Part shown: one piece after another, positions 762-19,922 of the stretch
Layout: every line of letters begins with the position of its first letter
Position numbering within the stretch: position 1 is the stretch's first letter
From: Phycisphaerae bacterium
GTDB taxonomy: Bacteria; Planctomycetota; Phycisphaerae; Sedimentisphaerales; Anaerobacaceae
NCBI GenBank assembly: GCA_028714255.1
Contig: JAQTMR010000002.1
Coordinates: 144,544-208,543 of the forward strand
DNA length: 64,000 nucleotides
Direction: 5' to 3'
Made by a program: the position numbers and the translations under genes
The notes under the pieces: generated by a model
Told to the model about the DNA's origin: nothing
The model's input: only the letters and a program-made list of their open reading frames with translations
Database searches by the model: none

Positions 762-2774
762 TCAGGGGCGATGTTTAACGGAGGCAACACGATTGTTCCA
801 TCGGCAGAGCCATGAGCCGAAAAGGGTTTTTTTGCCGGCGTGCTTCTGGTTTAGCGGGAAGATGGTATCCTGCCTCCAGGCGGTAATCTCTTCGGTGATT
901 TCGGTGCATTGCTGCTCGGAGAGTTCTATGGGTGACAGTTCGAGGGGGTCGTCGCTTAAATCATAGACGGAGACCATATTTTTGTCCTCGGCGGCGGCAA
1001 GTTTTCCGGCTGGGTAATAGATGAATTTTCGATTTGCTTTTACGAAGCCTGACGGGCTTTGGCTGAGCCAGCCTGAGAAATAAACTTTGCGGTCGTCGGG
1101 TATTTGTCCGAGAGCATCGATGCCATCGAAGTCTGCGGCCTGTGTATCGAAACCTAACAGGGTCAGCAGTGTCGGGGCCAGGTCGATGGAGCTGACGGGT
1201 TGCGTTACGATGGTTTTCGGCTGAATCAGGGACGTTGCCCGCAGACAAAATGGTATTCGCAGGCTCTCATCGAATGGGATTCTCTCGTGGCCGAGGAGGC
1301 CATGCTCGCCGAAGGCTTCGCCGTGGTCCGAGATGACGCAGAGAATGGTTTTGTCGGTGAGGTTGAGTTTTGCAAGCTCGGCGTCGAGTTCGGAGAGGAA
1401 TTTGTCCGTGTAGGAAATAGTCTGCAGGTATTTGTCGAGCGGCTCTTTTGCGGGGGCGTCGAACCATTGCGAGACCTCGTAAGGGTCGTGGGTAACCGAG
1501 AGCATAAGCGTGAGGAAAAAAGGTTTGTCGTCTGATTTTATCCATTCGACTATTGGGTTCAGCATAACGAACTCGTCGCAGGCGAGGTAGCCGAGGAAGG
1601 CATCGGGGTTATTCGAATCGTCTCTTGCCCAGAATTTGTCGAAGCCGAGGTTGTGTACGAGGCCCGGGCGGGATTCGAAGTTTCCCTTTGCGGACTGGAA
1701 GAAAGCGGTTTTGTAATCGGCGTTTTGTTTGAGGATGGTTGCGAGGCTCGCGTAAGGTTTTTCGATGGGGACAGTTTCGGCGATATCCTGCGAGACCGAA
1801 GGCAGCCGGCCGGTAAGGAGGCTAAAGAGAACTTTTGTCGTGTGGGTAAGCGAGGAGCGAGCGTTTGTAAATTCGACGCCCTGCTCCGCGATAGATGCGA
1901 GATAGGGCGTTAGGTTATTTTGTTTATCATAGAGCGAGGTGTATTTGTATTGAACGCCTTCGAGTACGACAAGGACGACGTTGTAGTTTGCCCGGCGATG
2001 TTTGGGCGAGGGCGTAATTTTTAGTTCGTCGAAGGCGGGGATTTTTCGTTTTGCATCGGCGAAATCGGATTTCGTCAGGCGGGCGGAGCCCGGGAAAAGG
2101 ATAGATGTCACGGCCCTTAGCTGGCTGTTGTATCGCATATCTTCGGAGATGATTTGCATGGAGGATGAGCTTCGGCCGGTGAGTGAGGCGGGAGCGAGGG
2201 CTGCGACCAGGACGATGAGAACAGAGACAGTAATTCTGCCTGCAAAGAGTTTTCTGTTGTAATTTGGCAGCAGGGGTTTAGCAAGGACGTAAAAGAAAAA
2301 GGCCAGAGCGACTGCGCTGGGGACGATGAGGATTACAGCGGCGGCAGGTGATTTCGCAAGATTGACGCCGACGATAGATAGTGCGTTGATGGGGTCGCGG
2401 AACAGCGGCAGGAAGACGGTGGGCAGGAGCTGTGTTCCGGTTCTTATCAGCCAGCCTGCGTTCAGGACCGACCAGGTGCATAGGACAGCGGCGAAGATAC
2501 AAGTTGTTCGGATGGCCCATTTGCGGGGCCAGTAAAAACAGAGCAGCGCCAGGATGACTTCGATAATCAGCAGGACGGCGATGTCTGGGAGTATCCAGCC
2601 GAGGTATTCGCTGAGCATTTCGATGCGCAAGGCGTGAAAGAGTTTTACCGCGAGGGTGCAGAACAAGGCTCCGAACATAATAAGGCTGTATTCGCGCGGA
2701 GCCAACCATGCATACAGTCGGCGGACTGGATGCAGCGGTTTTATATTCGCAGCAGTTACTGAAGAGTCAGACAT
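762..2774 (-). CDS. Membrane-anchored sulfatase / LTA synthase-like (alkaline phosphatase superfamily) protein
   Basis: 670 aa; N-terminal TM segments then NVVLVVLEGVQ..., SLLTGRLPS, ISDHGEAFGEHGLLGHE motifs. Confidence 0.85.
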   Translation of the reverse strand: MSDSSVTAANIKPLHPVRRLYAWLAPREYSLIMFGALFCTLAVKLFHALRIEMLSEYLGWILPDIAVLLIIEVILALLCFYWPRKWAIRTTCIFAAVLCTWSVLNAGWLIRTGTQLLPTVFLPLFRDPINALSIVGVNLAKSPAAAVILIVPSAVALAFFFYVLAKPLLPNYNRKLFAGRITVSVLIVLVAALAPASLTGRSSSSMQIISEDMRYNSQLRAVTSILFPGSARLTKSDFADAKRKIPAFDELKITPSPKHRRANYNVVLVVLEGVQYKYTSLYDKQNNLTPYLASIAEQGVEFTNARSSLTHTTKVLFSLLTGRLPSVSQDIAETVPIEKPYASLATILKQNADYKTAFFQSAKGNFESRPGLVHNLGFDKFWARDDSNNPDAFLGYLACDEFVMLNPIVEWIKSDDKPFFLTLMLSVTHDPYEVSQWFDAPAKEPLDKYLQTISYTDKFLSELDAELAKLNLTDKTILCVISDHGEAFGEHGLLGHERIPFDESLRIPFCLRATSLIQPKTIVTQPVSSIDLAPTLLTLLGFDTQAADFDGIDALGQIPDDRKVYFSGWLSQSPSGFVKANRKFIYYPAGKLAAAEDKNMVSVYDLSDDPLELSPIELSEQQCTEITEEITAWRQDTIFPLNQKHAGKKTLFGSWLCRWNNRVASVKHRP

Positions 2775-2849: not shown

Positions 2850-3674
2850 TTATTTGTTTATCGAGGAGTAAACCTTTAAGAAGGAGTCGGAATAAATTTG
2901 CTTGTTCATCAGCATTTCGGCGGTGGCGAGGATGTTCATAAGCCTTTCGTCGAAGACGTCGGCGATGGCCGAATCCAGGCCGTGAGAGACCGCCATGGCG
3001 AGAAAGGTACTGTTTATCAGGCTCCTTTGGGTTGTCCCCTGCGAAACGTTCGAAAGGCCTATGGTGATATGCGGAGCAGGCTCGGCGAGGATTGTTATCT
3101 GGTCCATAGCGGCGAGGATGTTGGTCGGCTGAATCTGAGCGTTGGGGACTTTGACGGGCAGAATGATTGGGTCGATGAATAATCGCTGGGTATCGAAGCC
3201 AAGCTCGACGGCTTTTGAAATTATTTCGGCGGCTATCGCAACGCGCGTATCGATATCCTGAGGGACACCGTTTTTGTCCATAGTCAGAGCAATAATGGCT
3301 GACTTTGGTCCGGCGTTTTTGGCCAGTTCGATATATTTATCAAGAATTTCCTCGTCGTTTTTTTTGTTCAGGGGGGATGAATTTAGAAGAATGCCTGGTT
3401 CGGTATTTGCGACCTTTAGTCCCGCGGCGATGACGTCTATTTTTTGTGAGTCGAGGCACAGCGGAGTGGAGCAGGTTTCCTGGATAGTTTCAACGAGCCA
3501 TTGCATCGCAGCCTGCTGGTCTGCGGCGGCAGTGCCGACGTTTACGTCGAGGTAAGTTGCGCCGGCGTCGGTTTGCCTTTTGGCGAGGTCCTGAATGACT
3601 TTTTTATTTTTATCTGCGATGGCCTGCTTAACATCGATGAACATTCCATTGATTCGTTCTGCAATGAGCAACAT
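2850..3674 (-). CDS. acsE: Methyltetrahydrofolate:corrinoid/iron-sulfur protein methyltransferase
   Basis: 274 aa pterin-binding fold: AERINGMF, YLDVNVGT, LCLDSQKIDV, GLSNVSQG; located in acs cluster. Confidence 0.9.
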   Translation of the reverse strand: MLLIAERINGMFIDVKQAIADKNKKVIQDLAKRQTDAGATYLDVNVGTAAADQQAAMQWLVETIQETCSTPLCLDSQKIDVIAAGLKVANTEPGILLNSSPLNKKNDEEILDKYIELAKNAGPKSAIIALTMDKNGVPQDIDTRVAIAAEIISKAVELGFDTQRLFIDPIILPVKVPNAQIQPTNILAAMDQITILAEPAPHITIGLSNVSQGTTQRSLINSTFLAMAVSHGLDSAIADVFDERLMNILATAEMLMNKQIYSDSFLKVYSSINK

Positions 3675-3704
3675 AGAAGTCTCCTATCCGGCTACGGCCT
3701 CAGC

Positions 3705-4673
3705 CTACGCCGAGACACGTTTCCAAATCTGGTTGATGAAATTTTTTACGGCGGCGACTGCTCGCGGGTGCCTCATTCGGATTATGTCTGCGCCTGCCTG
3801 GAGCAGACAGATTGCGGTGGCGGCCTCCCACATCGGGCCGCGGTCCTCGACGTTTCCCCAGCCGGGGGCGTCGGCGAGCCTGGCTTCTTTGACGCGCCAG
3901 GCTTCGTAGCCGACATCGCAGATGGCGGGCATCGCCATCATCTTGTCACCTGCGAGTGCGGCGAGGCGCTGGCGTTCCTGAATCGAATATGAATACTCTA
4001 TCCCGTAGCCCAACGCTCCGGTATCCTGAAACGTTACTATTTTTTCGAGCGGGAAACCCATATCCGAGACCAGTATGTTGACTTGTTTTCCGATGTTGAT
4101 GTCCAGAGGCGCTTCGGTAATAAGATTGTGCCCATCGGCGAGAGCGACGGCGGTAATAGATTTGTAGTTGTCTTGTTCGGCGGCGCCGAGGAGGCAGTTC
4201 TGGCCTTTCGCGGCTTCGCTTATTTTGGGTATAATTTGATTATCTTTCTCGTTGTTGCCGCAGCCCCATAGTATAAGAGGGACACCGACGGCTTTAAGGA
4301 CGTCTTCGGTAACTTTGACCGCGGCAGCAGCATCCTTATTTGCTTTGTCAGGGTGGATTCCGTCGAATTTGACGCAGATTAAGTCGGCGCCGAATTCGTT
4401 CACGGCCTTTTTCGCCCAGTCTGCGGGATTTTTAATGACATCTTTGTATGGTTCGATGAGGATATCAGGCCAGTCTTCTGGCGGGACATCCATTATGTCA
4501 ATAGCGATGACGGGTTTTTCGCCGGCGTCTTCGGCAGAGCCGGCATAGACGACATTGCGCGCGCCGCCAACGGTTATTGTCGAGGTTCGGGAGCCGCCGG
4601 TGTCTTTGGTTGAGCCGAGCGTAATCCTGTTTACCGAGCCGGCAAAACTTTCTAAAACTTCAGGGACTGGCAT
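3705..4673 (-). CDS. acsD: CODH/ACS complex delta subunit (corrinoid protein small subunit)
   Basis: 322 aa; ITLGSTKDTGGSRTSTITVGG, VFDIMDVP-like and FGADLICVKFDGIHPD motifs; adjacent to acsE. Confidence 0.92.
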   Translation of the reverse strand: MPVPEVLESFAGSVNRITLGSTKDTGGSRTSTITVGGARNVVYAGSAEDAGEKPVIAIDIMDVPPEDWPDILIEPYKDVIKNPADWAKKAVNEFGADLICVKFDGIHPDKANKDAAAAVKVTEDVLKAVGVPLILWGCGNNEKDNQIIPKISEAAKGQNCLLGAAEQDNYKSITAVALADGHNLITEAPLDINIGKQVNILVSDMGFPLEKIVTFQDTGALGYGIEYSYSIQERQRLAALAGDKMMAMPAICDVGYEAWRVKEARLADAPGWGNVEDRGPMWEAATAICLLQAGADIIRMRHPRAVAAVKNFINQIWKRVSA

Positions 4674-4693
4674 TTATAATTCTCCAAGTTTAG

Positions 4694-4748
4694 TAGTTAG
4701 TAACTGGTAAATTGGTAACTGGTAACTGGTAACTGGTAATTGGTAATT
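4694..4748. repeat. Heptameric tandem repeat (TAACTGG)n
   Basis: TAACTGG TAAATTGG TAACTGG TAACTGG TAACTGG TAATTGG in the acsD-cooC spacer. Confidence 0.9.
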
Positions 4749-4753
4749 ATCAT

Positions 4754-5488
4754 TTATCCTTTATTTAGTTCTTGTTCAAGTATTTTTTTAATTGCCGAGA
4801 ACGCGGGGCCGGCTTCTTCGAGGTCGAATACAGTTTTGCCCTGCATCGAGGCATCGGAAACAGCTTTATCGAAAGGGACACAGCCGATGGTTTCGATGCT
4901 GTCGATGTTTTTCGCGGTTTCGGTTCTGTTCCATATAATACCGATTTTTTTCGCTGAGATAGGCAAATCTTTGACGAGGTCAACGATTCTTTTTGCGGTG
5001 GCGATTCCGAGCGGAGTCGGTTCAGTAATGATGAAGAGGAAATCGACGTTGTTAGTTGTCCGCCGGGATAGGTGCTCCATACCGGCTTCGTTGTCTATGA
5101 CGACGAAGTCATATGAGGAGCTTAACTTGTTGAGGAACTGGCGGAGCAGATTATTCGCGGCGCAGTAGCAGGATGGGCCTTCGGGTCGGCCCATAGTAAG
5201 CAAATCGAAACCTTTAGCTTCGGTGATTGCCTGCTGGATGCCGTATTCGAAGGATTGTACCCTGCTTACGCCGGTGTTGTCGGGCGTTTTTGTGCGTGCC
5301 TGCTCGCGGATTTCGGCAATAGTTCCGTGCGGCGGAGTCCCCATTGTCAGGCCGAGGCAGGAATTCGGGTCGGCATCGACGGCTAAGACGGTCTTGCCGC
5401 GGTGCTGCAATAGAAATCGAATAATCATAGCGGCCAGGGAAGTTTTCCCTGAGCCTCCTTTTCCGCTTACGGCGATGGTTATGGGCAT
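4754..5488 (-). CDS. cooC: CODH/ACS nickel-insertion ATPase CooC/AcsF family
   Basis: 244 aa; deviant Walker A SGKGGSGKTS, AVDADPNSCLG; in acs cluster. Confidence 0.9.
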   Translation of the reverse strand: MPITIAVSGKGGSGKTSLAAMIIRFLLQHRGKTVLAVDADPNSCLGLTMGTPPHGTIAEIREQARTKTPDNTGVSRVQSFEYGIQQAITEAKGFDLLTMGRPEGPSCYCAANNLLRQFLNKLSSSYDFVVIDNEAGMEHLSRRTTNNVDFLFIITEPTPLGIATAKRIVDLVKDLPISAKKIGIIWNRTETAKNIDSIETIGCVPFDKAVSDASMQGKTVFDLEEAGPAFSAIKKILEQELNKG

Positions 5489-5503
5489 ATTTGCTCCTTA
5501 TAT

Positions 5504-7417
5504 TTATAAAGTTTTTGTCGGTGGGTTTTTTACCGACGGGAAAAGAGATAAATCCGTATGGGGCAGGAAACCTGCCTTGATAAATTCATCCATATATCCC
5601 GGATGGCTCATTAAATCGAAATAGGTCATACTTTCGGCGATTTTTTCGGCGGTATCGAGGGCTTTTCGGCTGAGTAAAACCGTCTTTGCGCCCGCGATAG
5701 AGGTATTACCGACAAACTGAATCTTCTCGATGGGTACATCAGGCAGCATTCCGATAGTGACAGCCTGTTTGACATTGAGGAAGTTTCCGAATCCGCCTGC
5801 GAGATAAATCGCGTCGAGGTCTTCCGGTCTGGTTTGGGTCGATTCCATAAGTACCCGGATAGCGGCGAAGACGCCGGCCTTGGAACGGACGAGATTGTTA
5901 ATGTCGGGCTGGGTTATTACGATTTCCTGATGTTCGCTGTCGGAGGGGACCAGTTGAAACTGCTGTCCTTCGTCGCCTTCTGTCAGGCGTTTATCGCCTT
6001 TGGGCTGGAATCGCCCGGTTCGGTCTATGATTCCTGCTGCAAATAATTCTGCGAGGGTATCTAAAAGCCCTGAGCCGCACAAGCCTACGGGATGGGTGTT
6101 TCCGATGGTTTTAAACTCGACGGAGCCGTCGGGGAGGATGCTGAGTTTTTCAATTGCGCCGGCTCCGGCTCTGGTTCCGTGCTTTACTCCGCTTCCTTCG
6201 AAGGCGGGCCCGGCTGAACTCGAGGCACAGACGAGCCAGTCGCTATTGCCGAGGACTATTTCGCCGTTTGTTCCGATATCGACGAGAAGCGAGACGGTTT
6301 TTTTTGTATACATTCTGGTGGCGAGGACTCCGGCGACGATGTCACTGCCGACATAGGCGGCGACGCCCGGCAGGCAATACAGCAAGCCTCGTTTATTTAT
6401 CCGCAGGCCGATTTCGGCGGCCCGGATTGGGGGGACAGAGCCTGCCGAGGCGACGTAAGGTTCTCTGCGTATCCGCGTCGGGTCGAGATTGAGCAGGAAG
6501 TGAATCATCGCGGTGTTTCCGGAACAGACAATCGCGGTTATATCATGCAAATCGATTTTCTGTCTCGAGGCTAAAGTTGCGATGAGATTATTTATATCGC
6601 TGACGGCGCGATTTTGCATCTCGTCGAAGGCGTCGTTTTCCTCGGCGTACATTATTCTGCGGATATAGTCTTCGCCGAAATTTATCTGGCTGTTATATAC
6701 GGCCTCGGTGTCTATTGTTGAGCCGGTGGTCAAATCGAGCAGATGTGCAACGACGGTGGTGGTGCCGAGGTCAACGGCGACGGCGAAATTTGTTTTGCAT
6801 CGGCATCCCTGCTCGACTTCGAGGACTTCGGCAGTTCCGCCCCTTCGGGCGATTGTCGCAGCGACTTTGTAATCGGCTTCGACGAGCAGTGCCGAAAGAG
6901 CCTTTAGGACACGCAGCCCGGTCTGCATTATGGGTGCATCAATCTGCTCTCGTATTGCCGTACACAGTCTTTCATGGTCGGCGGTATGGTCGCTTACCGT
7001 CGGCGGGGACATCTGGAGGCAGATTTTGCGAACCAGCGGGTCAAACTTAAAGACGCCCTCTGTCTTATCGGCAAGTTTACTGCCGGCGTCGGTGTCGGTT
7101 AGTATTTGAGAAGCCTGCAGGGTGTGCGAGGCAGGGACAGTTACGGTCATATCCGAAAGTATTTTTGTCTGGCAGGCGAGAACGACGTTTTTGCTGATTT
7201 CATCGGTGGTAAGCAAAGTGGTCGGTCTGCTTTGAAATTGTCCGCGGTCGATGGTTACTTTACATTTTCCGCAATAGCCGTCTCCACCGCAGATGCTGGT
7301 TAAATAGATACCGGCCTTGCGGGCGGCTTCAAGCAGAGTAGTTTCCTTCGGGACTTCTATTTTCAGTCCGCTCGGCTCGAAATTGACCAGATATTTCTTC
7401 TTTTTGGCCTGCTCCAT
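5504..7417 (-). CDS. acsV: ASKHA-domain ferredoxin, corrinoid activation/regeneration protein
   Basis: 637 aa; N-terminal 2Fe-2S CGGDGYCGKC, AVDLGTTTVVAHLLDL ATPase motif, acs-cluster context. Confidence 0.9.
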   Translation of the reverse strand: MEQAKKKKYLVNFEPSGLKIEVPKETTLLEAARKAGIYLTSICGGDGYCGKCKVTIDRGQFQSRPTTLLTTDEISKNVVLACQTKILSDMTVTVPASHTLQASQILTDTDAGSKLADKTEGVFKFDPLVRKICLQMSPPTVSDHTADHERLCTAIREQIDAPIMQTGLRVLKALSALLVEADYKVAATIARRGGTAEVLEVEQGCRCKTNFAVAVDLGTTTVVAHLLDLTTGSTIDTEAVYNSQINFGEDYIRRIMYAEENDAFDEMQNRAVSDINNLIATLASRQKIDLHDITAIVCSGNTAMIHFLLNLDPTRIRREPYVASAGSVPPIRAAEIGLRINKRGLLYCLPGVAAYVGSDIVAGVLATRMYTKKTVSLLVDIGTNGEIVLGNSDWLVCASSSAGPAFEGSGVKHGTRAGAGAIEKLSILPDGSVEFKTIGNTHPVGLCGSGLLDTLAELFAAGIIDRTGRFQPKGDKRLTEGDEGQQFQLVPSDSEHQEIVITQPDINNLVRSKAGVFAAIRVLMESTQTRPEDLDAIYLAGGFGNFLNVKQAVTIGMLPDVPIEKIQFVGNTSIAGAKTVLLSRKALDTAEKIAESMTYFDLMSHPGYMDEFIKAGFLPHTDLSLFPSVKNPPTKTL

Positions 7418-7426
7418 ATAATTTTT

Positions 7427-7535
7427 TCACCGCTGAGTTCGCAGAGAACGCTGAGTTTTTATTTTTATTAATCCTACATTTGACGAATTTATATTTAGCT
7501 GTTTCTCTGCGGGCTTTGCGTGCTCCGCGGTTAAT
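7427..7535. repeat. Inverted intergenic repeat in acsC-acsV spacer
   Basis: TTCACCGCTGAGTTCGCAGAGAACGCTGAG versus rc of CTCTGCGGGCTTTGCGTGCTCCGCGGTTAAT. Confidence 0.7.
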
Positions 7536-7543
7536 CCTTTATT

Positions 7544-8878
7544 CTATTTCCAGACTTCTTTGAGGTATTTAGGCAGCATCGAACTTTCTCTTGGGCCGAC
7601 CATAACTTCCCAATTAGTTGCTTCTTCGAGTTTACCGCTCATCACCGCAACATAACCTGGGATTATCAATTTACGGTGCTTGACGAGGTCCTGGACGTTG
7701 CATTTGGTCATGGCGTCTGCCACTATCTTTTCGTTCAGCTTGTCGCCGGAGTAAGCGGTCAAAACGGAAGTGCCTTCTGTATCGACGACGAGTATGTAGC
7801 TGGGTACACGACTTGCCTCGACGTCGGACTCGACGGTGTAATAAGTCAGCGAGAAGTTCGTAGTGAACAGCACGGGAGAGTTTTCATCGGGTTCGCCGAC
7901 GGTATAGATTTTCGGCTCGACCTGGACAGGTTTCTGCGGGTCGGTGAATATATTCATTACGGCTGTGGCGATGGGCAGAAAGACATACTGCTCGACGGTA
8001 TCGAGCGCCACGACGCCGGAGTATTTGCAGGCCAGGCCTACAGCGGCGGCGGCCTGTTGGTCGGCGTCGCCGGCGACAAAGGAAATAGTCGGATAGCCTA
8101 ACGGCCTGAATACTTTTTTGAGCGAGAGCACCCGCATCCGCGAGAGATTATATAATTTATCCCGGAGGGTCTCGGTCTGGAGATTGAGGACGATGTCTTC
8201 GATGCCGAGCGATTTGATTTTTTCTGTAAGGCCACAGAGGCTTTCGAGCGAATCGGCCTTTGCGACGATTGGGCATTTGTTTTCTTTGGCGATTTTTGCC
8301 ATTTCCTGTGCGTTATCGTTCGTAGCATTGGCGATAAGCGGGACAAACTTTGCGGTTTTGGCGACCGCGGCGGCCATCGCCTGTGGTGAATCTGAAACAA
8401 GGATTAAGGCAAATGGGCTGGACTGTGCGGCTGTTTCCGCGGCGGCGGCGAAGGCGTCGGCCTGGCCGCTATCGTTAATAACCGCTATGGCGCCGGCTCC
8501 GATTCGAACTCCGACGCGCTCAAACCGCAGTGCGTTTATGGCTTTAATTCGATTTTGCAAATCCGGGCCTGTGAGTTTATCCGAGATTGTCGCAGCAAGG
8601 ACGGTTGGGCTGTAGAATTTTTCTTCGTGCCGGAACATTACGGTTTCCTGACCAATCTGTACCTGATGGTCGCCGCTGCCGAAGACGACTTTTCGCATTG
8701 GAGGAGCCGCTGCGGCGGCGAGAGTATTTTTTGCTTCTTCAGAAACATCCGGGCAACTATCCAGTTTGGCGCGTTTCTGCGCGAGCTGCATGGCAAAGGC
8801 CAGACAAGTGGGCATGCCGCATTTTTTGCAGTTAGTTTTCGGTAAGAGCTTGAAAATTTCCAACCCTGTCAGCGCCAT
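7544..8878 (-). CDS. acsC: CODH/ACS complex gamma subunit (corrinoid protein large subunit)
   Basis: 444 aa; N-terminal 4Fe-4S motif NCKKCGMPTCLAFAMQLA; ILVVDTEGTSVLTAYSGDK C-terminus. Confidence 0.93.
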   Translation of the reverse strand: MALTGLEIFKLLPKTNCKKCGMPTCLAFAMQLAQKRAKLDSCPDVSEEAKNTLAAAAAPPMRKVVFGSGDHQVQIGQETVMFRHEEKFYSPTVLAATISDKLTGPDLQNRIKAINALRFERVGVRIGAGAIAVINDSGQADAFAAAAETAAQSSPFALILVSDSPQAMAAAVAKTAKFVPLIANATNDNAQEMAKIAKENKCPIVAKADSLESLCGLTEKIKSLGIEDIVLNLQTETLRDKLYNLSRMRVLSLKKVFRPLGYPTISFVAGDADQQAAAAVGLACKYSGVVALDTVEQYVFLPIATAVMNIFTDPQKPVQVEPKIYTVGEPDENSPVLFTTNFSLTYYTVESDVEASRVPSYILVVDTEGTSVLTAYSGDKLNEKIVADAMTKCNVQDLVKHRKLIIPGYVAVMSGKLEEATNWEVMVGPRESSMLPKYLKEVWK

Positions 8879-8956
8879 AATGTTTCCCTTACAAAATAAT
8901 AACAGATAAACGACGAATAACTAATCATATATCCATCCATGGGTTTTGACCAGTCT

Positions 8957-11146
8957 TTAGAACATAGGTTCGAGTCCGGTCGCGGGATGGCCGGCCTTGG
9001 TAATAAATTCGAGGACCTGCTCTTCGGTAACGGCGGATGTCTCGTCGGCGATTTTGTCGAGGAAATCTCCTCCGCCAAGTCCGAGCTCGTCGGCCCTTTT
9101 TGCGAAAGCATCCCTGATTTCATTTTTGAGCACAGAAGGCATCCAGACGATTCGTTTGATACCGCCTTCGGCAGCGATAAATTTCCTTGAGCAGATGTAG
9201 TGCTTGGAATGTCCGATGAAGCCGGGCGTCTGGTTTCCGCCGCCGACGGTTCCGGCGAGGGTAGAGAATTTCATTCCGCAGGGAGTCATCTCGGGGAACT
9301 CTCTGTTGACGACCATTATTCCGCCTGTCGAAGGCAGGACGGCGGCGATACATTCGAAGCAGCCGCAGGAAGTCATCGGGTCGATAATCATACTGTACTG
9401 GCTCATTTGTGCGACGTTGCCGCCGCTGGCCTTTAAGACGAAATCGTTAATTTTGTCCCACTGTCCGACGGTCGGCTCGATTGATTTGCCTTTTGGAATG
9501 GGCTGATTTGCGCCGGCGGGGTTGATTTCATAAGCAGCCCGGCAATCGAGCCAGCTGTAAGCTCCGCACAAGCCGGGCCTTTCCGGCGAAATTATACACA
9601 CGTGGTTCGGGGCGAAGCTCTGACAGAGGGTACATGAGTAAAAAGTTTCTATGTCCTCATCGACCATGCCTGCCAGTCGGGCATCACGGTCGGCGTAAAC
9701 TTTGGACGCCTGCTCGCGCAGCTTCACGACGTCGGCTTCATCGCTGTATATTTTGACCTGCACCTTGTCGAGGACGTTCGAATACTGCTCGTGATACATC
9801 GCGTGAAGAAGTTTTCCGATGTGTTCGAGTTTGAAGCCCGCCTTTGCGGCGTTTTTGCTGATTCTGATCCATATAGTATCGCGCTGGCCCATGTGCCACA
9901 GGCCCTGCGCTTCGTTCATAAAGGTATGAACCTGTCTTTCGAGGACAGGCTCGAAGTCGGCCTGCATTTTTCTTCCGGCGACTTCGACGATAATAGCCAG
10001 AGGCAATTTCCCGGCCTCTTCCACCGAATCAACGTCCGGGCCATAGACATCTATTTTTCCGTCTTCGACCTCTGCGACGTCGAGCATTCGAATCCATTCG
10101 AGTGCGGGCGTTCTCTGGCCGCCGAATTCGATTTGCATATCTTCTTTTCTAATACGTTCGCCTTCGAAGGCCGGGCTGTAAGAGACAGGGATGGGTACTT
10201 CGGAGATTTTTATTTTCAGGCCGCGAACTTCGATGGCTTTTTCCACTATTTTGTCGTGAGGGATATTGGAGACGACGTGCTCGTAGGTACATACGCCTGT
10301 GGGCAGAATCTGGGGGATGTCGGAATCTGCGATGACGGGGAAGCCGAAGTTGATTGCGCCTGCGGCGGCGGCGTACCATTCGTCAGTGACTTTGCCAAGC
10401 GCAAGGACGAAGGCGAAGACCCTGTTTTTATTGTATTGAAGATTTCGGGTGAAGTCGCCCGGCTGGACGCCGCCGAAGCTTAAGGCGGCCCTGCTGGCGA
10501 AGCCGAGGGCGTAAGCGGCTGCGGAAATGTCGCGGCCGAAGGGTACAAGACGGGTGTCCCAGCCTAACTCAACGCCGCCTTCGACTAACTGCTCGGCGAA
10601 AGAAGTTCCGTTATCGTTACCTGCCATAAAGACGTACAAGCTTCTTTCCTGGCATTTGCGGGCGATTGTGACGGCGGTTTCCACATCAGGGGCTGCACCG
10701 ACAATGGCGGCAAAACCCGGAGCCGAGCCATCGACGAACTGAATGCCTCGTTCGCGGAGGATTATGTCATCTGCGGCGCCGAGCCAAATGCCATCGACGG
10801 GATTGGGGCCGATTAGATATTTGCAGGCTTCAATAATTTCCGCGGCGAAAAGTGTAGCCATGCCTGCATCGAGTGTCGGGCCGAGGTACGGCAGCCATAA
10901 ATCGTCATCGACCAGCGGAGGCATGAGAGGTTTTATTTCTTCGGCCATTACGGTTTCGAAGTCGGCCAGTGTCTCTACGACCCGGCCGGTCATCGAATAG
11001 ATAATTGGTATGTAATAGCCGGTGTTCGGGAACTCGACCTTGCAGTCTCTGCCTTTTTGCTCGATTGCTTTTACAAGTACATGCTCGGCATGTTTGACAA
11101 TGTTATGAGCGCCGCGTATTGCTGCTGAAGCTATGATTTTCGACAT
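8957..11146 (-). CDS. acsB: CO-methylating acetyl-CoA synthase, bacterial-length beta subunit
   Basis: 729 aa; A-cluster ligand region CTLCQSFAPNHVCIISPERPGLCGAYSWLDC...CGCFECI. Confidence 0.96.
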   Translation of the reverse strand: MSKIIASAAIRGAHNIVKHAEHVLVKAIEQKGRDCKVEFPNTGYYIPIIYSMTGRVVETLADFETVMAEEIKPLMPPLVDDDLWLPYLGPTLDAGMATLFAAEIIEACKYLIGPNPVDGIWLGAADDIILRERGIQFVDGSAPGFAAIVGAAPDVETAVTIARKCQERSLYVFMAGNDNGTSFAEQLVEGGVELGWDTRLVPFGRDISAAAYALGFASRAALSFGGVQPGDFTRNLQYNKNRVFAFVLALGKVTDEWYAAAAGAINFGFPVIADSDIPQILPTGVCTYEHVVSNIPHDKIVEKAIEVRGLKIKISEVPIPVSYSPAFEGERIRKEDMQIEFGGQRTPALEWIRMLDVAEVEDGKIDVYGPDVDSVEEAGKLPLAIIVEVAGRKMQADFEPVLERQVHTFMNEAQGLWHMGQRDTIWIRISKNAAKAGFKLEHIGKLLHAMYHEQYSNVLDKVQVKIYSDEADVVKLREQASKVYADRDARLAGMVDEDIETFYSCTLCQSFAPNHVCIISPERPGLCGAYSWLDCRAAYEINPAGANQPIPKGKSIEPTVGQWDKINDFVLKASGGNVAQMSQYSMIIDPMTSCGCFECIAAVLPSTGGIMVVNREFPEMTPCGMKFSTLAGTVGGGNQTPGFIGHSKHYICSRKFIAAEGGIKRIVWMPSVLKNEIRDAFAKRADELGLGGGDFLDKIADETSAVTEEQVLEFITKAGHPATGLEPMF

Positions 11147-11169
11147 TTACAAAGTCTCCTGTTTTCGAT

Positions 11170-13113
11170 TTATATCGCCAGTGCCCGGCGTTCTTCCATA
11201 TCGTAAAGTTTGCGGTCCTTTTTGGTGTTTATTCCGAGTGCGTCACGTTTCGCCTCAATGTGTTTAATCATTAATCTTGCTGCCTTGACGGGGTCCTTTT
11301 CGAAGGCCCATTTGCCGCCGAGTTCTTTTTCGATTTCGTCAGTTAAGTATTTCGTCAGTTTCTCGGCGCCGAGTACGGGCAGCGGTTCGCCGACAACGGT
11401 AAAGACTCCGGAAGCTACGAAATACATGCCGATTGAAACAGCTTTTTCGGACATCCATTCCGGAGCTGCGCCTGCGACGGGTAAATCGGAGATGTCATCG
11501 CCGAGTCCGCCTTCGGCGACGATGTTTGCGAGGATTGTGAGAATCCTGCTGTTATCTACGCAGGAGCCGACGTGCAGTACGGGCGGGATGCCTAAAGTTT
11601 CGCAAATTTCACGCAGGCCCTGGCCGCAGTATTTTTCGGCGGCTTCGGGCCTCATCAGGCCGGCCTTGCCCGCGGCCATCGCACCGCAGCCGGTGCTGAC
11701 GACTAAGACATCATTTTTGATAAGCTCTTTTATCATTTCAATGTGGCAGTAATCGTGCATCTGCTTCGGATTGTTGCAGCCGACGACGCCTGCTGCGCCT
11801 CGCAGGCGTCCGGAGATGATAGCGTCGTTTAATGGACGGTAGCTCCGGCGGAAGCTGCCGCCGAGGGCGTAGTAAATATTTTCAGTTGTGAAGCCTGCGA
11901 TGCCGCGTTCGGTGATTTTGGGAATCTTGATTTCGCTTTTTCTGTTGGTGAAATTTTCGATAGCGGTTTTGATTATTTGCCGGGCTATCTGAACAGCTTT
12001 ATCTTCACGAAACTCGATGTGTTCGGCGCCGACTATTTTGCATTTCGGCGAGGTCGTGATTAGCTTGGTGTGGAAGCAACTGCACAGAGAGCTTAGGGCA
12101 GGCATAATACACTGCACATCCACGAGCATTACGTCAACTGCTCCGGTCATTATGGCCAGTTCCTGCTGGAGGAAGTTGCCCGCGACGGGGATGCCGTGAC
12201 GCATTAATATTTCGTTTGCGGTGCAGCAGATACCTGCGATGTTGATTCCGTCGGCGCCTTTTTCTTTTGCGAACTTTAGCAGTTCAGATTCCTGTGATAC
12301 TGCAACAACGATATCGGAAAGAGTCGGTTCGTGGCCATGCACGATTATATTGACCTTCTTTTTGTCGAGTACGCCGAGGTTTGCACCGAAGCGAATTGGC
12401 TGGGGACTACCAAATAAAATATCGGAAAGCTCGGTTGCGATAAGTGAGCCGCCCCATCCGTCAGCCAGACTGCATCGCACGCCCTGCTTGATTAGATTTT
12501 TGTAATCCGAGCCGACGCCCATATGTGTCGTGTGCATAATCTCAACGACTTCGCGGTCTATGGAACGAGGTGTTACGCCGAGCTGGTTCCAGAGTTTTTG
12601 TCTTGTCTTCGGTGCGTAAGCGGCGGCGGTGGCTAAAGCGCCATCCTGCCTGCCGAATTCGTTCATTACTACATCGGAGAGGTCTTTGGCGATTTCCTTT
12701 ATAGACCGGCCTTTGGTATTAATGCCGTACCTTGTTGCGACTGCTTTAAGTTTGTTTTCGTCTTTTATCATATAGTCGCAGGATTCGCTTTCGACGACCA
12801 TCTTGAATGTATGTGCGATGTCACGGCCATGGTCGGAATGTGCGGCTGCACCCGCGGCAATCATTCGCAGCATATTTCTGGCGGCAATCGTGTCGGCGTC
12901 TGCGCCGCATATGCCGGTCTGCGGGCCTTCACCGAACGGGTCAACCCTGCATGGTCCCATCGAGCAGTTCCTACAGCAGATACCGAGTTTGCCGAAGCCG
13001 CACTGGGGCTGCTGTTGTTCGAGTCTTTCCCATGCGTTTTCTATGCCTGCGTCGGCCATATGTTTAAGCATTTCCTGAGATGCTTTATCGATGCTGCGTT
13101 CTTTCGGTTCCAT
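11170..13113 (-). CDS. cooS: Anaerobic Ni-Fe-S carbon monoxide dehydrogenase catalytic subunit
   Basis: 647 aa; GICCRNCSMGPCR, GHEP, GICCTANE, GVVGCNN, STGCGAMAAGKAG, HVGSCVDNSR. Confidence 0.96.
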   Translation of the reverse strand: MEPKERSIDKASQEMLKHMADAGIENAWERLEQQQPQCGFGKLGICCRNCSMGPCRVDPFGEGPQTGICGADADTIAARNMLRMIAAGAAAHSDHGRDIAHTFKMVVESESCDYMIKDENKLKAVATRYGINTKGRSIKEIAKDLSDVVMNEFGRQDGALATAAAYAPKTRQKLWNQLGVTPRSIDREVVEIMHTTHMGVGSDYKNLIKQGVRCSLADGWGGSLIATELSDILFGSPQPIRFGANLGVLDKKKVNIIVHGHEPTLSDIVVAVSQESELLKFAKEKGADGINIAGICCTANEILMRHGIPVAGNFLQQELAIMTGAVDVMLVDVQCIMPALSSLCSCFHTKLITTSPKCKIVGAEHIEFREDKAVQIARQIIKTAIENFTNRKSEIKIPKITERGIAGFTTENIYYALGGSFRRSYRPLNDAIISGRLRGAAGVVGCNNPKQMHDYCHIEMIKELIKNDVLVVSTGCGAMAAGKAGLMRPEAAEKYCGQGLREICETLGIPPVLHVGSCVDNSRILTILANIVAEGGLGDDISDLPVAGAAPEWMSEKAVSIGMYFVASGVFTVVGEPLPVLGAEKLTKYLTDEIEKELGGKWAFEKDPVKAARLMIKHIEAKRDALGINTKKDRKLYDMEERRALAI

Positions 13114-13155
13114 ATACTACCTCGCTTTACTAATTACGTTCAGATAAACAATTAC

Positions 13156-13229
13156 TGTCACTCCTGCGCAAGCAGGAGTCCAGAAGCTTCTGATAGAATA
13201 ACTGGATTCCCGCTTTCGCGGGAATGACA
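13156..13229. repeat. REPIN/MITE-like element of two paired hairpins
   Basis: TGTCA-CTCCTGCgcaaGCAGGAG-TCCAG ... CTGGA-TTCCCGCtttcGCGGGAA-TGACA. Confidence 0.9.
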
Positions 13230-13272
13230 TTTTTGTTTATAAAACAATGTTTCATTAAATATCCAAAAGTTA

Positions 13273-14640
13273 CTAATTCATATTTTTTTCTGCCATCGCT
13301 AAAACCTGTTCTGCTCCTGTGGTTTCAACGACGACGGCTGATTTTTGAGCGTGCACTAACGCCTCGGCAAATTTCGCACGGGGCGAATTGAATCTTTGCA
13401 GAAATTCTTTTCTGTCTTCTGATTCTAATACAGCCTTGTATAGCTGCCAGGCGAACTGTGAGCCGTGCTTTTTAGCCACGAGTTGGGCGCCAACAATTTT
13501 ATCATCGGGGTCAGTTAGGATTTTCGCGGCCTCGAACGAATTCGCTGCCGAATTTTTTATAGATGATTTCGGGACGTTTAAATCGTGTATCTTTACTTTC
13601 AAACCAACTTCCTTTGCGGTGGTGGTGCTATGTCCAATACTGAAAATCTGCAAGCCCAGAATATCATCGGCCTGGGCACGCAGGAATCCTTTAGATTGCT
13701 GATTTGCACCGGCTGCGTTTGCGCCGGCGATTTTGCCGGCAAAGGCACCGATGCTTCCTACAGGAGAATAAACAAAACTGCCCGTATCCATATCGGGACT
13801 TTCCGCACAGTCGCCCGCGGCGTATATATCTCTTGCCGAGGTTTCCATACGGCTATCTACTTTGATTGCGCCGGTCGAGCCGAGTTCGATTCCGCATTTT
13901 TCCGCGAGCGCAACATTTGGTTTCATGCCCGTGCCTATTACGACAAGGTCGGCGGCGATTTTGGCGCACTTGTGAACGACATATTCGACTTGGTCGGCTC
14001 CGCCGATTTCAGATATTGTTTCGTCGGGGAGCATTTTTAATCCCTGCTGCTCGAACTTCGCAGTGAGGATGTCTGAAATATCCGGCTCAAGCAGTTTTCT
14101 AAGAATCCTCGAACGGACGTTGAAGTAAACATCGAGGCCTTTGTGCATCAGGGCCTCGGCGATTTCGAGAGCGATAAAGCCTGCGCCAATTACCACGGCT
14201 GATTTTGCGTTCTTCGCGGCCTCTATGATTTCAACGGCGGCTTCGTAAGTGGTAAATGTGCAAACGCCCTTTTTATCAGAGCCTTTGATTTTCGGAATCA
14301 AGGGAGTAGCACCGGCGGCTAAAACTACCACGTCGTAAGGCAGTTTCTCTTCTTTGCCTGCGGATAGAATAGAGATTGTTTTGTTTTTCGGGTCGATGTT
14401 TGTGACTTCAGCGGGGCAAATCATTTTAATATTATGTTTAGCCAGCGTTTCCTGTGAGAAGATTTTCGCCCCGGCGGGTTCTGTTATGAAGCCTGCGATA
14501 AGCGCAGGGATTGCGGGTCTGCGGTAAGGGACGCGGTCGCCCGTTACTGCCGTTACCTCTGCGCCGCCGTCCTGTTTAGCTGCGGAAATCGCGGCCATCA
14601 TCCCTGCGGCACTGGCACCAATTACAACAATCCTTTTCAC
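13273..14640 (-). CDS. FAD-dependent pyridine nucleotide-disulfide oxidoreductase (NADH oxidase / FNOR-like)
   Basis: 455 aa; GASAAGMMAAISA, VVIGAGFIALEIAEAL, IYAAGDCAE; between cooS and a ferredoxin. Confidence 0.88.
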   Translation of the reverse strand: MKRIVVIGASAAGMMAAISAAKQDGGAEVTAVTGDRVPYRRPAIPALIAGFITEPAGAKIFSQETLAKHNIKMICPAEVTNIDPKNKTISILSAGKEEKLPYDVVVLAAGATPLIPKIKGSDKKGVCTFTTYEAAVEIIEAAKNAKSAVVIGAGFIALEIAEALMHKGLDVYFNVRSRILRKLLEPDISDILTAKFEQQGLKMLPDETISEIGGADQVEYVVHKCAKIAADLVVIGTGMKPNVALAEKCGIELGSTGAIKVDSRMETSARDIYAAGDCAESPDMDTGSFVYSPVGSIGAFAGKIAGANAAGANQQSKGFLRAQADDILGLQIFSIGHSTTTAKEVGLKVKIHDLNVPKSSIKNSAANSFEAAKILTDPDDKIVGAQLVAKKHGSQFAWQLYKAVLESEDRKEFLQRFNSPRAKFAEALVHAQKSAVVVETTGAEQVLAMAEKNMN

Positions 14641-14643
14641 CGG

Positions 14644-15192
14644 TTATTTTCCCCCGCGCCCAGCATCCCTTGCGGGGCTTTTCTTTTTGATTTCTTCGGC
14701 AAGCTGTTTTGACGCCGCTGCGCGTTTCGGCTTTGTTAATTCTTTGAATGATACGAGTTTCATTGCTTTTGTAGGGCAGGCCTCGATGCAGGCGGGCTGC
14801 TGTCCGTCTTCCAATCGCTGCCAGCACATATCGCATTTAATAATCGCCCGTCCCTCCGGCCCGATTTGCAAAACGCCGAAAGGGCAGATGAGCATACATA
14901 GCTTGCACCCGATACATAAATCCTGATTAACTGTAACGGGGCTTTGTTCGTTCAGCCTTTGAATCGCTCCGGTGGGACAAATCTCGACGCAGAGCGGAGC
15001 TTCGCAATGCCGGCATTGAATCGGAACGGCAAATTCGTCTGCGCTTTCTACGGTAACCATCCGTAAAGGCTTCGGCGATTCGGCGACAGCTTCTTCGAGC
15101 ACTTTCGATTTCGAATGCGCGACGGCGCATGCCAGCTCACAGCTTTTGCAAGCGAGGCACTTTTCGATATTTACTACAATGGTTTTATCCAC
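14644..15192 (-). CDS. 4Fe-4S polyferredoxin, CooF/HycB-like
   Basis: Cys motifs CLACKSCELAC, CRHCEAPLCVEICP, CIGCKLCMLICP, CDMC; GTG start at 15192 preceded by GGAG; track ORF extends to 15219. Confidence 0.85.
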   Translation of the reverse strand: MDKTIVVNIEKCLACKSCELACAVAHSKSKVLEEAVAESPKPLRMVTVESADEFAVPIQCRHCEAPLCVEICPTGAIQRLNEQSPVTVNQDLCIGCKLCMLICPFGVLQIGPEGRAIIKCDMCWQRLEDGQQPACIEACPTKAMKLVSFKELTKPKRAAASKQLAEEIKKKSPARDAGRGGK

Positions 15193-15360
15193 AGTTTTTC
15201 TCCAATCGGGCTGCGGCAAGGGCTTTGCCCCAGGAACAATTAAACAAAAAACCCACCTCTATCAGGGTGAAAAAAGCGATAATTCCTGATACGCTCCTGC
15301 CAAAATGCCGTCTTGCCTATAAATACGCTTCTTACGGAGAGGAGTTCTTTGTTTCCTGCA

Positions 15361-15395
15361 CCCCACTGCTTCGCTTTGCGAAGCAAAGCGTGGGG
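15361..15395. repeat. Compound palindrome in the cooF/DUF3786 divergent intergenic region
   Basis: CCCCAC-N6-GCTTTGC GAA GCAAAGC-GTGGGG nested stems. Confidence 0.8.
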
Positions 15396-15619
15396 GCGGG
15401 TCTGCCAGTATTTAAGATAAAAGACGAATTATATTCGATATTTCGAGAAGTTGCATAGTATTTTCTGTTTTTGGCTTTTTTGGTCGTAATTTGGCGTAAA
15501 GAGCGCTGTTTAAGGGGCAAAGCCGGAGAGTTGTTGCATAAATAAATCGCTTTCTATATTATGAAATTTTTAGAGATTTAATTGTCAGCAATCACAAATT
15601 TAACAAGGCACGTAAAAAA

Positions 15620-16207
15620 ATGGCAAACGACGGACTTTGGCAGCAGGTTCTAAAGCTCAATGGGCAGGAAACGGCCCAACGGGCGAAGTGCCGGTATTTA
15701 TCCGATTCGCAGAGTTATATCATAACGCTGCTGAACCGCGAATATACGGTTGAACTGTCGGAGAAAAAGATACCGAATGCGGGATTTGCCGAGGAGCTTA
15801 GTATTCTTACTTGCCTGATAAATTCCAAAGATTTGCCGGTCGCTAACAAGTTAAAGACGGCTCATCAGCTTCCGGAAGGGCAATTTTTTTTCAGAGGGCA
15901 TCACAAGTTGGCTACTGAAAAATTAGAAGAGGCCTTCGGGCAATTTCCTGAAAGGCTGTATGATATTATGGATAAATTCGGTGGTATAAGGCGCGAATTC
16001 GGCGACGCCTCTATCGAATTATATGTTCTGCCTCGTGTTCCTCTGACAATAGTAATTTGGCGAGGCGATGAGGAATTCGGCGCGCGGGCGTCAGTTTTGT
16101 TCGACGAGACCGCGGCCGAGCAAATGCCGCTCGATGCGTTATGGGTGTCGGCGAATCTGGCGATTAAGACATTGGCAAAAGAAGTAACCAGTGAAAAACA
16201 CGGTTAG
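15620..16207 (+). CDS. Conserved hypothetical protein, DUF3786-like
   Basis: 195 aa; resembles the DUF3786 family from memory; apparent operon with the second cooC. Confidence 0.6.
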   Translation: MANDGLWQQVLKLNGQETAQRAKCRYLSDSQSYIITLLNREYTVELSEKKIPNAGFAEELSILTCLINSKDLPVANKLKTAHQLPEGQFFFRGHHKLATEKLEEAFGQFPERLYDIMDKFGGIRREFGDASIELYVLPRVPLTIVIWRGDEEFGARASVLFDETAAEQMPLDALWVSANLAIKTLAKEVTSEKHG

Positions 16208-16230
16208 TAATACTGTAAAGGGCGATATCG

Positions 16231-17019
16231 ATGACCGAGACAAAAATTTCCCGTGGGGTTAAGATAGCAATCGGCGGCAAGGGAGGCGTTGGTAAGACAA
16301 CTATCTGTGCCGTTTTGGCGCAATTGTTCGCCGAAGATGGTTTAGACGTTTTGGCGATTGACGCTGACCCGAATACCAATCTTGCTTTGGCTTTCGGGTT
16401 ATCTTCCGGCCGAAGCCCCCTGCCTCTTGTGAAAATGGAGGAGCTGGTCGCCGAGCGCACCGGCAGTAAGGGGCAGGCGGCGGGAGCGTATTTCCGGTTG
16501 AATCCAAAGGTAAGCGACTTGCCTGAGAAATACTGGGTCGAAGCGGGCGGCGTAAAGCTATTGGTTCTCGGCGGGATTACACAAGCCGGGGCCGGCTGTG
16601 CCTGTCCGGAGGGAGCGTTCTTAAAAGCGATGCTCGGTCATACTATATTAGCGAGGCAGGAAGTTGTTCTGGTTGATTTGGCGGCGGGCGTGGAGTTTAT
16701 GGGCAGGGCCAGCATCGAAGGTATCGACGCTCTGCTGATTGTCACCGAGCCGGGCGGAAGGAGTATCGAAACCACGAAAACAATCGCGAGGATGGGAAGT
16801 GAGCTGGGAATAAAACACATCGCGGCGATAGCGAACAAGATTACGAATTCGGCTCAGGTCGAGGCGATAAAATCTCAATTGGATATTGCCGTTCTGGCGG
16901 AGATTAACTATGACCCTGCGGTGCAGGATGCGGATTTGCATAATGAAGCCGTTTTTGGGGCCGGCGACGAGCTTGTAAACCAGCTGCGAAAAGCAAAAGA
17001 CAAATTGACAAGTTGGTGA
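16231..17019 (+). CDS. cooC: Second CooC-type maturation ATPase
   Basis: 262 aa; GGKGGVGKTTICAVLAQLF, AIDADPNTNLALAFG, DLAAGVEF. Confidence 0.88.
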   Translation: MTETKISRGVKIAIGGKGGVGKTTICAVLAQLFAEDGLDVLAIDADPNTNLALAFGLSSGRSPLPLVKMEELVAERTGSKGQAAGAYFRLNPKVSDLPEKYWVEAGGVKLLVLGGITQAGAGCACPEGAFLKAMLGHTILARQEVVLVDLAAGVEFMGRASIEGIDALLIVTEPGGRSIETTKTIARMGSELGIKHIAAIANKITNSAQVEAIKSQLDIAVLAEINYDPAVQDADLHNEAVFGAGDELVNQLRKAKDKLTSW

Positions 17020-17021: not shown

Positions 17022-19547
17022 TTACGGGCTGGGGACAACGGTATAGGCCGCTTCGTTGAGTGCGCTCCACTTGGCGCCTGCGGTTTTATAAGTGCGTGCT
17101 TTAAGGACAGCGTTTTGATTGAGCGTGAAGCTGCCGGTATAGTGGATTGCGCCGGGGGAAATTGCTCCCGTAAATTGGTCTCGCGGGTCACTGCCGTCGA
17201 GCGTGTAATAGATAGCGTCCACACTACAGGGGTCAGTGATGGTGAATGTGTCACTCGAGGAGACGTCTCCGCCGAATTTGTAAACGCCGTTTACATAAAA
17301 TACCGGTGCGCTCTGCGCGAGGTTGAATAGGCCCTGTTTTTCAAAGACGGCCAATATGGGGGTTTCGCGGTTTGGTATTAGGTTGTCGGGGATGAACCTG
17401 ACGGGGTAATTTGACGTTTCCGGCAGGACGGGCGATACCTCGCCGAACACTTCCCACCACTTCGCGAGGAGATGATTTTTTGTCAATATGCCGCCGTTGC
17501 GGAAATGTTTATGGATGCGGTCGGCGAAGAGCTGTCTGAAGTAGGAATTGGCCTTTAGTGCGCGATATATCTGCGAGGTGGGGTCCCACGGCAGATGATT
17601 AAGGCCTGTGGGACTTGTCCAGTTGGGGAAATCCTCGAAGGCGTTCATATCCATATGGTTTTCGAGGGTCCAGGTTTCGATGCCCTCGGCGTCCCAGATG
17701 GTGAATCTGAATTTACTGCCGTCCGCTTTTTCGCAATGAGCTGTCCAGTTATTGCCGGGCCAGTCGAAGTTGCCGCTGTATATTTGCAGAACGAGGTAAT
17801 CTACGAACATCGGTATATCAAGCCTGTCGGCAACGTAACTATAATAAGTGGTATTGGACAGGTCGTGGGTGTTGGCGTAATTGATTAAGCTGTAAAAAGC
17901 GGCGCTGTCACCGTCTCTAACGCCAGACTGGGTAATAACGTCGAAGTCGTTGTCGGTGTTGTACCATTCCTGATAAAATTCATCATCGGCCCTGCCCGTG
18001 ACATTATAGTAGGCCTTGAATTGGCCGTTGATGTAGAGATTGGCAAACGTGCCGGTCTCCTGAACGCCTCCCATTTCCTTAAACAGTCTTCTCATCCATT
18101 CGTCTTTGACAAACGGTGTGCAGGCATCGTTGTGACCCGCGCGCAAGACGATACTGCCGAACCGCACAACTTCGGGCGTCCAGGCAAAGAACGGATATTC
18201 GAGCCGATTATTGCTGCCGTAGTCACTTCTAAAATATAGATTAAAGCTGAACTTGTTACTGTTCCAGTTAGGCCACCCGCTCCAGCAGGTGCTCCAGTCG
18301 CTGCCGCGGGTGTAACGGGGCCTTGTATAGTCGCTGCCGTGGACGCGAATGCCGCAATTTATCTGGTAATTTGCGTCGGCTTGCGGGTCGATGATTTCCA
18401 GTGAAACAGGTTTTTCGAGGCCTCGCTGCAGGGGATTGTTATAAGTACCCACGCCGCCGGATTGCCAGACGCCGCCGCTGTAATAACCGCCGACGATTGC
18501 CATAACGCCATCCGGCTCAAAGAACGTCTGCCCGTAATCGCCGACCAGTGAAACAAGTGGCATTGCCCTGACAGTTGCGCTTGCCCCGAAGATGTATGTG
18601 TGTGACATTGATGGCGAGGGTCGCCAGCCAGTCTTGGTTGCTGAGGCGCGGAGGCATTTTGTGGAACTTATGGTCACAGGCGCCGTATAACGGATACTCT
18701 GCGGGGAATTCACTTCACCGCTGACCGGGTTGCTGCCATTGGTGGTGTAGTAGATAGTTGCATTAGGCGTGGTGCAGGACATAGTAACATTAAACGGCGT
18801 GTCATAGAAGCCGCGTATATGACTGAATTCGACTTCGTTGACTTCGCCGGTGTAGCCCGGATTGTTATGCGCGCCGGGGGTAGGAGTGGTTGAGAACTGC
18901 CAGTTGTCCCCAGCATCGGGGTACCGCTCGTAGGAGATATTGGTCGTCTGCGACCCAAATGTTATCGAATCAATTAACGTTTCATTGGCGTCGGACAGCA
19001 ATATATCCTCGCCGTCAGCCGAGAGCTTGACCTCAGCGTGAAGTGGGCCTTGATTTGGTTCCTCGTCTGCCCAGATTACAACAAAGCCGTGAGCCGGTAC
19101 TGTTGTCTGCGATGAGTAACCCGAAGGGAATTGCCATTTGGTTGGATTGTCGGGCTTATCCGACAGGTACATCCCGGCCAAGTCTATCGGCGTATCGCCG
19201 AAGTTGTATATTTCAATCCAGTCGTCGTAATCACCGTAGAGGTCATTAATATCGCTGTCGCTATTGTTGGAGGCCATAAATTCGTTGATTGAAAGGGCAA
19301 TGCCGCGGTCAAACCAGGAATTTGCGAGAATTGAGAAATCGACAAGATTAATGCCGTTTAAGCCGTCAATATCCGCACATACGACATCTTCGCAGTCGCC
19401 ATTATCCAGCCACTGCTCGGAGAGAATCTGAATATCCCACCAATCGACCGTGCAATCGCCGCTAATGTCGCCTTGCGGGCACAGCCCGGCAACGGCAAAA
19501 CCAGCCAAAACCCCAACGATTACCAGCGAAAAAAGCGATATTCTCAT
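17022..19547 (-). CDS. Secreted CotH-like protein with dockerin-like, lamin-tail and chitobiase C-terminal-like domains
   Basis: Signal peptide; GDISGDCTVDWWDIQILSEQWL; LSINEFMASN...DWIEIYN; IYYTTNGSNP/IYYTLDGSDP; RVHGSDYTRP. Confidence 0.85.
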   Translation of the reverse strand: MRISLFSLVIVGVLAGFAVAGLCPQGDISGDCTVDWWDIQILSEQWLDNGDCEDVVCADIDGLNGINLVDFSILANSWFDRGIALSINEFMASNNSDSDINDLYGDYDDWIEIYNFGDTPIDLAGMYLSDKPDNPTKWQFPSGYSSQTTVPAHGFVVIWADEEPNQGPLHAEVKLSADGEDILLSDANETLIDSITFGSQTTNISYERYPDAGDNWQFSTTPTPGAHNNPGYTGEVNEVEFSHIRGFYDTPFNVTMSCTTPNATIYYTTNGSNPVSGEVNSPQSIRYTAPVTISSTKCLRASATKTGWRPSPSMSHTYIFGASATVRAMPLVSLVGDYGQTFFEPDGVMAIVGGYYSGGVWQSGGVGTYNNPLQRGLEKPVSLEIIDPQADANYQINCGIRVHGSDYTRPRYTRGSDWSTCWSGWPNWNSNKFSFNLYFRSDYGSNNRLEYPFFAWTPEVVRFGSIVLRAGHNDACTPFVKDEWMRRLFKEMGGVQETGTFANLYINGQFKAYYNVTGRADDEFYQEWYNTDNDFDVITQSGVRDGDSAAFYSLINYANTHDLSNTTYYSYVADRLDIPMFVDYLVLQIYSGNFDWPGNNWTAHCEKADGSKFRFTIWDAEGIETWTLENHMDMNAFEDFPNWTSPTGLNHLPWDPTSQIYRALKANSYFRQLFADRIHKHFRNGGILTKNHLLAKWWEVFGEVSPVLPETSNYPVRFIPDNLIPNRETPILAVFEKQGLFNLAQSAPVFYVNGVYKFGGDVSSSDTFTITDPCSVDAIYYTLDGSDPRDQFTGAISPGAIHYTGSFTLNQNAVLKARTYKTAGAKWSALNEAAYTVVPSP

Positions 19548-19850: not shown

Positions 19851-19922
<72 letters not shown>

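Follow-up and report, generated by a model that had tools for sequence, protein, structure and literature searches.

Five gut acetogens without a formate dehydrogenase (FDH) have been described (PMC10103890). Blautia luti makes its formate with pyruvate formate-lyase (PFL), and Clostridium bovifaecis, which has PFOR only, needs an external supply of formate (PMC12773636). Like these two organisms (PMC10103890, PMC12773636), the genome studied here has Wood-Ljungdahl genes without an FDH; unlike them, it comes from a planctomycete and not from the gut Bacillota. C. bovifaecis is the closer parallel, as the PFL that supplies B. luti with formate was not detected. Among classical carbon monoxide dehydrogenase/acetyl-CoA synthase (CODH/ACS) systems, those of Moorella, Carboxydothermus and C. 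autoethanogenum have a homologous AcsB with the A-cluster residues; they are distant in sequence from the locus described here, where genes for a CooF-like ferredoxin, an FAD/NAD(P) oxidoreductase (FNOR) and a DUF3786 protein are attached to the cluster. The acetyl-CoA pathway of anammox bacteria (Brocadiales) is nearer, with a related AcsB (~64% identical) in a neighboring clade of Planctomycetota, but DUF3786 was not found in those loci, and an autotrophic lifestyle is not indicated for our genome.

The closest systems belong to metagenome-assembled genomes (MAGs) of Sedimentisphaerales and Phycisphaerae, and a 2026 paper reported Wood-Ljungdahl genes in Sedimentisphaerales MAGs (PMC13335318). 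Their clusters (for example those in G063, G122, G058, JAOUFU010000012 and CP070728) share the genes of ours and most of its gene order, with AcsB 75-83% identical. The present locus differs in that DUF3786 and cooC2 are divergent instead of leading the operon, in that fhs does not adjoin acsE, and in that no FDH was found in the genome. We consider it probable that the locus encodes a complete, vertically inherited CODH/ACS of Sedimentisphaerales, within an acetogen-like gene set that lacks the step from CO2 to formate and that would draw its methyl groups from external formate or from serine-derived methylene-THF.

We analyzed a stretch of 64,000 nucleotides (hereafter the window) at the right end of contig 2 (positions 144544-208543) of a 2.41 Mb genome in 39 contigs, estimated to be 98.9% complete. 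All eleven genes of the locus lie where a sequence-only reading of this DNA had placed them, and their identities were upheld by family scores far above chance from NCBIfam and Pfam profiles. Nine of them form a minus-strand run (window 2850-15219). For four of them, at least one function-specific model scores above its curated cut-off: acsB, acetyl-CoA synthase (8957-11146; NF040764, 1060 bits, cut-off 800); cooS, nickel CO dehydrogenase (11170-13113; TIGR01702, 698 bits, cut-off 478); acsC, the large corrinoid iron-sulfur subunit (7544-8878; NF003195, 552 bits, cut-off 306); and acsD, the small subunit (3705-4673; NF003376, 384 bits, cut-off 280). The methyl-THF:corrinoid methyltransferase gene acsE (2850-3674) matches PRK07535 (1.9e-74) at 250 bits, 9 bits under the cut-off of 259, and Pterin_bind (6e-19). 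The reductive activator of the corrinoid protein (RACo), acsV (5504-7417), scores 596 bits against NF040756, below that model's 'exception' cut-off of 800, but Pfam recovers every RACo domain in it (Fer2 plus the linker, middle and C-terminal domains). The maturation ATPase gene cooC1 (4754-5488) encodes a MinD/ParA-type protein with the P-loop GKGGSGKT and a CxC motif at 107. Upstream of cooS are the FNOR gene (13273-14640; Pyr_redox_2, 1.5e-59), which adjoins cooS in G063 and G122 too, and the gene for the CooF-like polyferredoxin (14644-15219; Fer4_11, 7.5e-21), found in the same place in some members of the order. Diverging from this run on the plus strand (15620-17019) are the gene for DUF3786, a candidate CODH/ACS accessory protein (15620-16207; PF12654, 9.6e-40, 136 bits, cut-off 27), and a second maturation ATPase gene, cooC2 (16231-17019; CbiA/ParA ATPase, P-loop GKGGVGKT, CxC at 123).

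The metal ligands that the sequence-only reading had picked out in AcsB, CooS and AcsC were all present when checked by position, and none of the checked cysteines whose loss would have spoken against function is missing from these proteins or from the two CooC proteins, both of which have CxC and P-loop motifs. AcsB has Cys505, 508, 517 and 527 and Cys594-Gly595-Cys596, which we take from solved enzymes to be the A-cluster; an alignment of 14 sequences from the order showed these cysteines to be invariant. In CooS, Cys38, 46, 47, 50, 55 and 69 presumably bind the D and B clusters, and His261, Cys296 or 297, 335, 446, 476 and 518 presumably the C-cluster, again judging from solved enzymes. AcsC has Cys17, 20, 25 and 42. 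The solved chains closest to AcsB are acetyl-CoA synthases, and one CODH chain from C. autoethanogenum ranks among the solved structures closest to CooS.

The AcsB phylogeny that the sequence-only reading had proposed agrees with its planctomycete host. In a tree built with a quick method, with SH-aLRT as the only support value, the window sequence fell inside a Planctomycetota/Sedimentisphaerales clade (support 100 for the 38-row clade and 99 for a 27-row clade), its nearest relatives being Phycisphaerae/Sedimentisphaerales MAGs. Moving outward from this group are other Planctomycetota including Brocadia, then Actinomycetota, Bacillota and Desulfobacterota. The sole non-planctomycete among the named rows of the 38-row clade is a Desulfocapsa MAG (JAOZTO010000014), which carries a planctomycete-type acs cluster with DUF3786 and may reflect transfer or misbinning. 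The AcsB proteins of two members of the order, G155 and G130, are divergent and sit on a long branch near Actinomycetota.

The same reading had suggested, as an inference, that the cluster is unusual for its lineage, and this is not supported. A search of 162 Sedimentisphaerales genomes detected CdhC in 50, the AcsB relatives are planctomycetal, the gene order is shared, and Wood-Ljungdahl genes have been reported from the order in the paper cited above; the acetyl-CoA pathway is thus widespread in Sedimentisphaerales. The order DUF3786-cooC2-(cooF-FNOR)-cooS-acsB-acsC-acsV-cooC1-acsD-acsE-fhs recurs, whole or in part, across genera, and G063 and G122 have the identical gene set plus fhs, all on one strand. 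The pathway is probably ancestral in the order and was repeatedly lost. At the cooS position in this gene order, members of the order fall into two groups that share ~76-82% and 53-58% identity, respectively, with the window cooS, although the adjoining AcsB are 72-83% identical; on these identities, the pattern looks like gene replacement of cooS.

Within the genus, CdhC was not found in the congeners G009 (98% complete) and G010. G009 has a sulfatase gene 77% identical to the one that flanks acsE in the window (762-2774, minus strand), beside the same tRNA-Thr (19851-19922, plus strand, here the right flank), but no acs block; the closest neighbors in common on either side are separated by 2.8 kb in G009 and by 18.1 kb here. 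Because the arrangement acsB-acsE-sulfatase-thiE seen here is retained in G029, which belongs to another genus, loss of the block in G009 is the simpler account, and horizontal gain of the cluster beside the tRNA-Thr is less likely. The sporadic presence of CdhC within the genus would also be expected if the contig were a binning error and the cluster came from another organism. However, the flanks have close counterparts in G009 (75-77%), fhs, which lies on another contig, shares 87% identity with its G009 counterpart, and AcsB is planctomycetal, so we regard such an error as extremely improbable.

The methyl-branch genes lie outside the window, as had been noted from the sequence; a search of the rest of the genome, which the same reading had suggested, recovered fhs, fchA, folD and metF but no FDH. 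The metF gene is ~3 kb left of the window start (G000:C2:140593-141447). Directly after it is a gene for a distant AcsE-like pterin-binding methyltransferase (G000:C2, L002:15039-16007), with relatives of 45-50% identity in G005 and G031 and no corrinoid protein seen beside it. On contig 1, fhs, fchA and folD sit together with a gene for an OMPdecase/HUMPS-RraA fusion (C1:5540-10937). Of what a CO2-reducing Wood-Ljungdahl pathway calls for, the genome thus has fhs, fchA/folD and metF and lacks a detectable FDH/CO2 reductase: no protein anywhere in the 98.9% complete, 39-contig draft matched the molybdopterin oxidoreductase family PF00384, and hence no FDH was detected. This and every other absence reported here is bounded by MAG completeness, and our searches covered named families and selected stretches.

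PF00384 was not found in G009 or G010 either, whereas the majority of relatives that carry CdhC do have it; their PF00384 protein often measures ~900 residues, and several of them encode it on the acs contig. A few other CdhC-bearing genomes are without it, such as G041 (94% complete). Because the family is absent from all three members of the genus and present in most CdhC-bearing relatives, the apparent loss of FDH most likely occurred at the level of the genus. Two alternative sources of one-carbon units were considered. PFL was not found in the genome, which speaks against it as a source of formate, and the P protein of glycine decarboxylase (GDC-P/GcvP) was not found, which speaks against glycine cleavage as a source of methyl groups. 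A glyA gene is present (by sequence reading). With no detected step from CO2 to formate, the methyl carbon must enter as formate or as methylene-THF, most likely as formate taken up from other microbes and activated by Fhs, or else as methylene-THF derived from serine; CO2 would supply the carbonyl carbon only. The genome is thus a candidate for an FDH-less Wood-Ljungdahl pathway outside the gut and outside the Bacillota. If this is true, such bacteria would depend on formate from their neighbors or on serine.

The fusion gene on contig 1 (L161:7486-8820, G000:C1) joins an OMPdecase/HUMPS (hexulose-phosphate synthase-like, HPS) domain to an RraA domain. An enzyme of this kind could free formaldehyde from hexulose-6-phosphate, which would condense with THF, feed the methyl branch and bypass FDH. 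The contig 1 order fhs, HPS/RraA-like gene, fchA, folD fits this route and is found in G063 also. G063 has PF00384 proteins, though, none of the remaining relatives that we inspected showed the fusion next to fhs, and matches to OMPdecase/HUMPS and RraA do not prove HPS activity; we therefore think the formaldehyde route very unlikely.

In the reading that we prefer, with formate or serine as the methyl source, CooS would interconvert CO2 and CO, with the CooF-like ferredoxin and FNOR connecting it to NAD(P)H. AcsE would pass the methyl group of methyl-THF to AcsCD, AcsV would re-reduce the corrinoid, and AcsB would join methyl, CO and CoA. Maturation of the metal sites would fall to both CooC proteins, probably with DUF3786. 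Of the Rnf or Ech complex and bifurcating-type hydrogenase looked for in acetogens, the genome has Rnf and HydABC. HydA, HydB and HydC were confirmed by Pfam, and they are adjoined by HydE-, HydF- and HydG-like maturases (read from sequence) and by Rex (sequence reading and matching domains). RnfD was identified by profile and the remaining subunits of the Rnf operon by sequence reading. A likely electron partner, the NADH-dependent ferredoxin:NADP oxidoreductase, is encoded in the window by nfnA-nfnB (45004-47387, plus strand; NF004862 and TIGR01316 over cut-off, both halves of PRK12778).

The genes of the cluster do not give a direction, and on this the sequence-only reading, which had left acetogenesis and oxidation undecided, still holds. 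Run in reverse, the pathway would split acetyl-CoA, oxidize the methyl group to formate by way of MetF, FolD/FchA and Fhs, gaining ATP, and oxidize CO to CO2; formate and H2 would pass to partners and FDH would be unnecessary. Fhs, FolD, MetF, CODH/ACS, HydABC, Rnf and Nfn are all in place for this, and FDH was not found. No gene evidence favors oxidation, however, and most CdhC-bearing relatives have an FDH-family protein, which leaves reversal rather improbable in our view. Somewhat easier to entertain, though still unlikely, is a cluster that serves only anabolism, supplying acetyl-CoA or methyl-THF in a small-genome fermenter, as a remnant heading for loss as in G009 and G010. The small genome, the two congeners without CdhC, the clean loss of the block in G009 and the FDH already missing from the genus all fit such a remnant. 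On the other hand, reading frames and ligands are intact, and HydABC, which was not found in either congener, joins Rnf and Nfn in a set that conserves energy.

A search for DUF3786 (PF12654) detected it in 48 of the 162 genomes of the order, where it follows CdhC closely: 46 genomes have both, 4 have CdhC only, 2 have DUF3786 only and 110 have neither (Fisher p 4e-33, ignoring relatedness). In genera g1, g2, g5, g6 and g17 the two change together between presence and absence, and in G005 they co-occur with their genes more than 1.9 Mb apart. In one of the DUF3786-only genomes, G066, cooS and cooC2 adjoin the DUF3786 gene, and acsB is probably missing through incompleteness. A cooC gene lies within 400 bases in 26 of 32 DUF3786 loci (several loci being the same genome twice), and in loci labeled Deltaproteobacteria, Bacillota and Dehalococcoidia the DUF3786 gene is likewise a neighbor of acs genes. 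Because DUF3786 was not found in two control archaea with CdhC or within Brocadia loci, not every CODH/ACS requires it.

The predicted fold of DUF3786 (mean pLDDT 93.6) had no match in a fold search of the PDB (best E 0.18, TM at most about 0.2), a sequence-profile search of the PDB also gave no match, and a literature search returned nothing related. An alignment of 17 sequences contains no Cys or His that is conserved throughout, and this speaks against direct binding of a metal. Since DUF3786 tracks CdhC even when unlinked, adjoins cooC in several phyla and has a fold without a solved match, we put at about even the chance that it acts with CooC as a maturation factor dedicated to CODH/ACS, one that as yet has no name. 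This is a side result that gives DUF3786 a testable role, and it may matter more than the cluster itself.

Scans of the acs cluster for promoters and terminators gave counts similar to those of shuffled sequence and nothing usable. Two inverted repeats, each with a single occurrence within the window, lie in intergenic gaps: one between cooS and the FNOR gene (13206-13225) and one where DUF3786-cooC2 diverge (15364-15395), which may mark a rearrangement of these two genes. Elsewhere in the window, 17022-19547 and 36234-39308 encode large proteins that, as judged from reading the sequence, are of secreted type and have dockerin-like repeats close to the N-terminus, as would be expected of a polysaccharide-degrading planctomycete.
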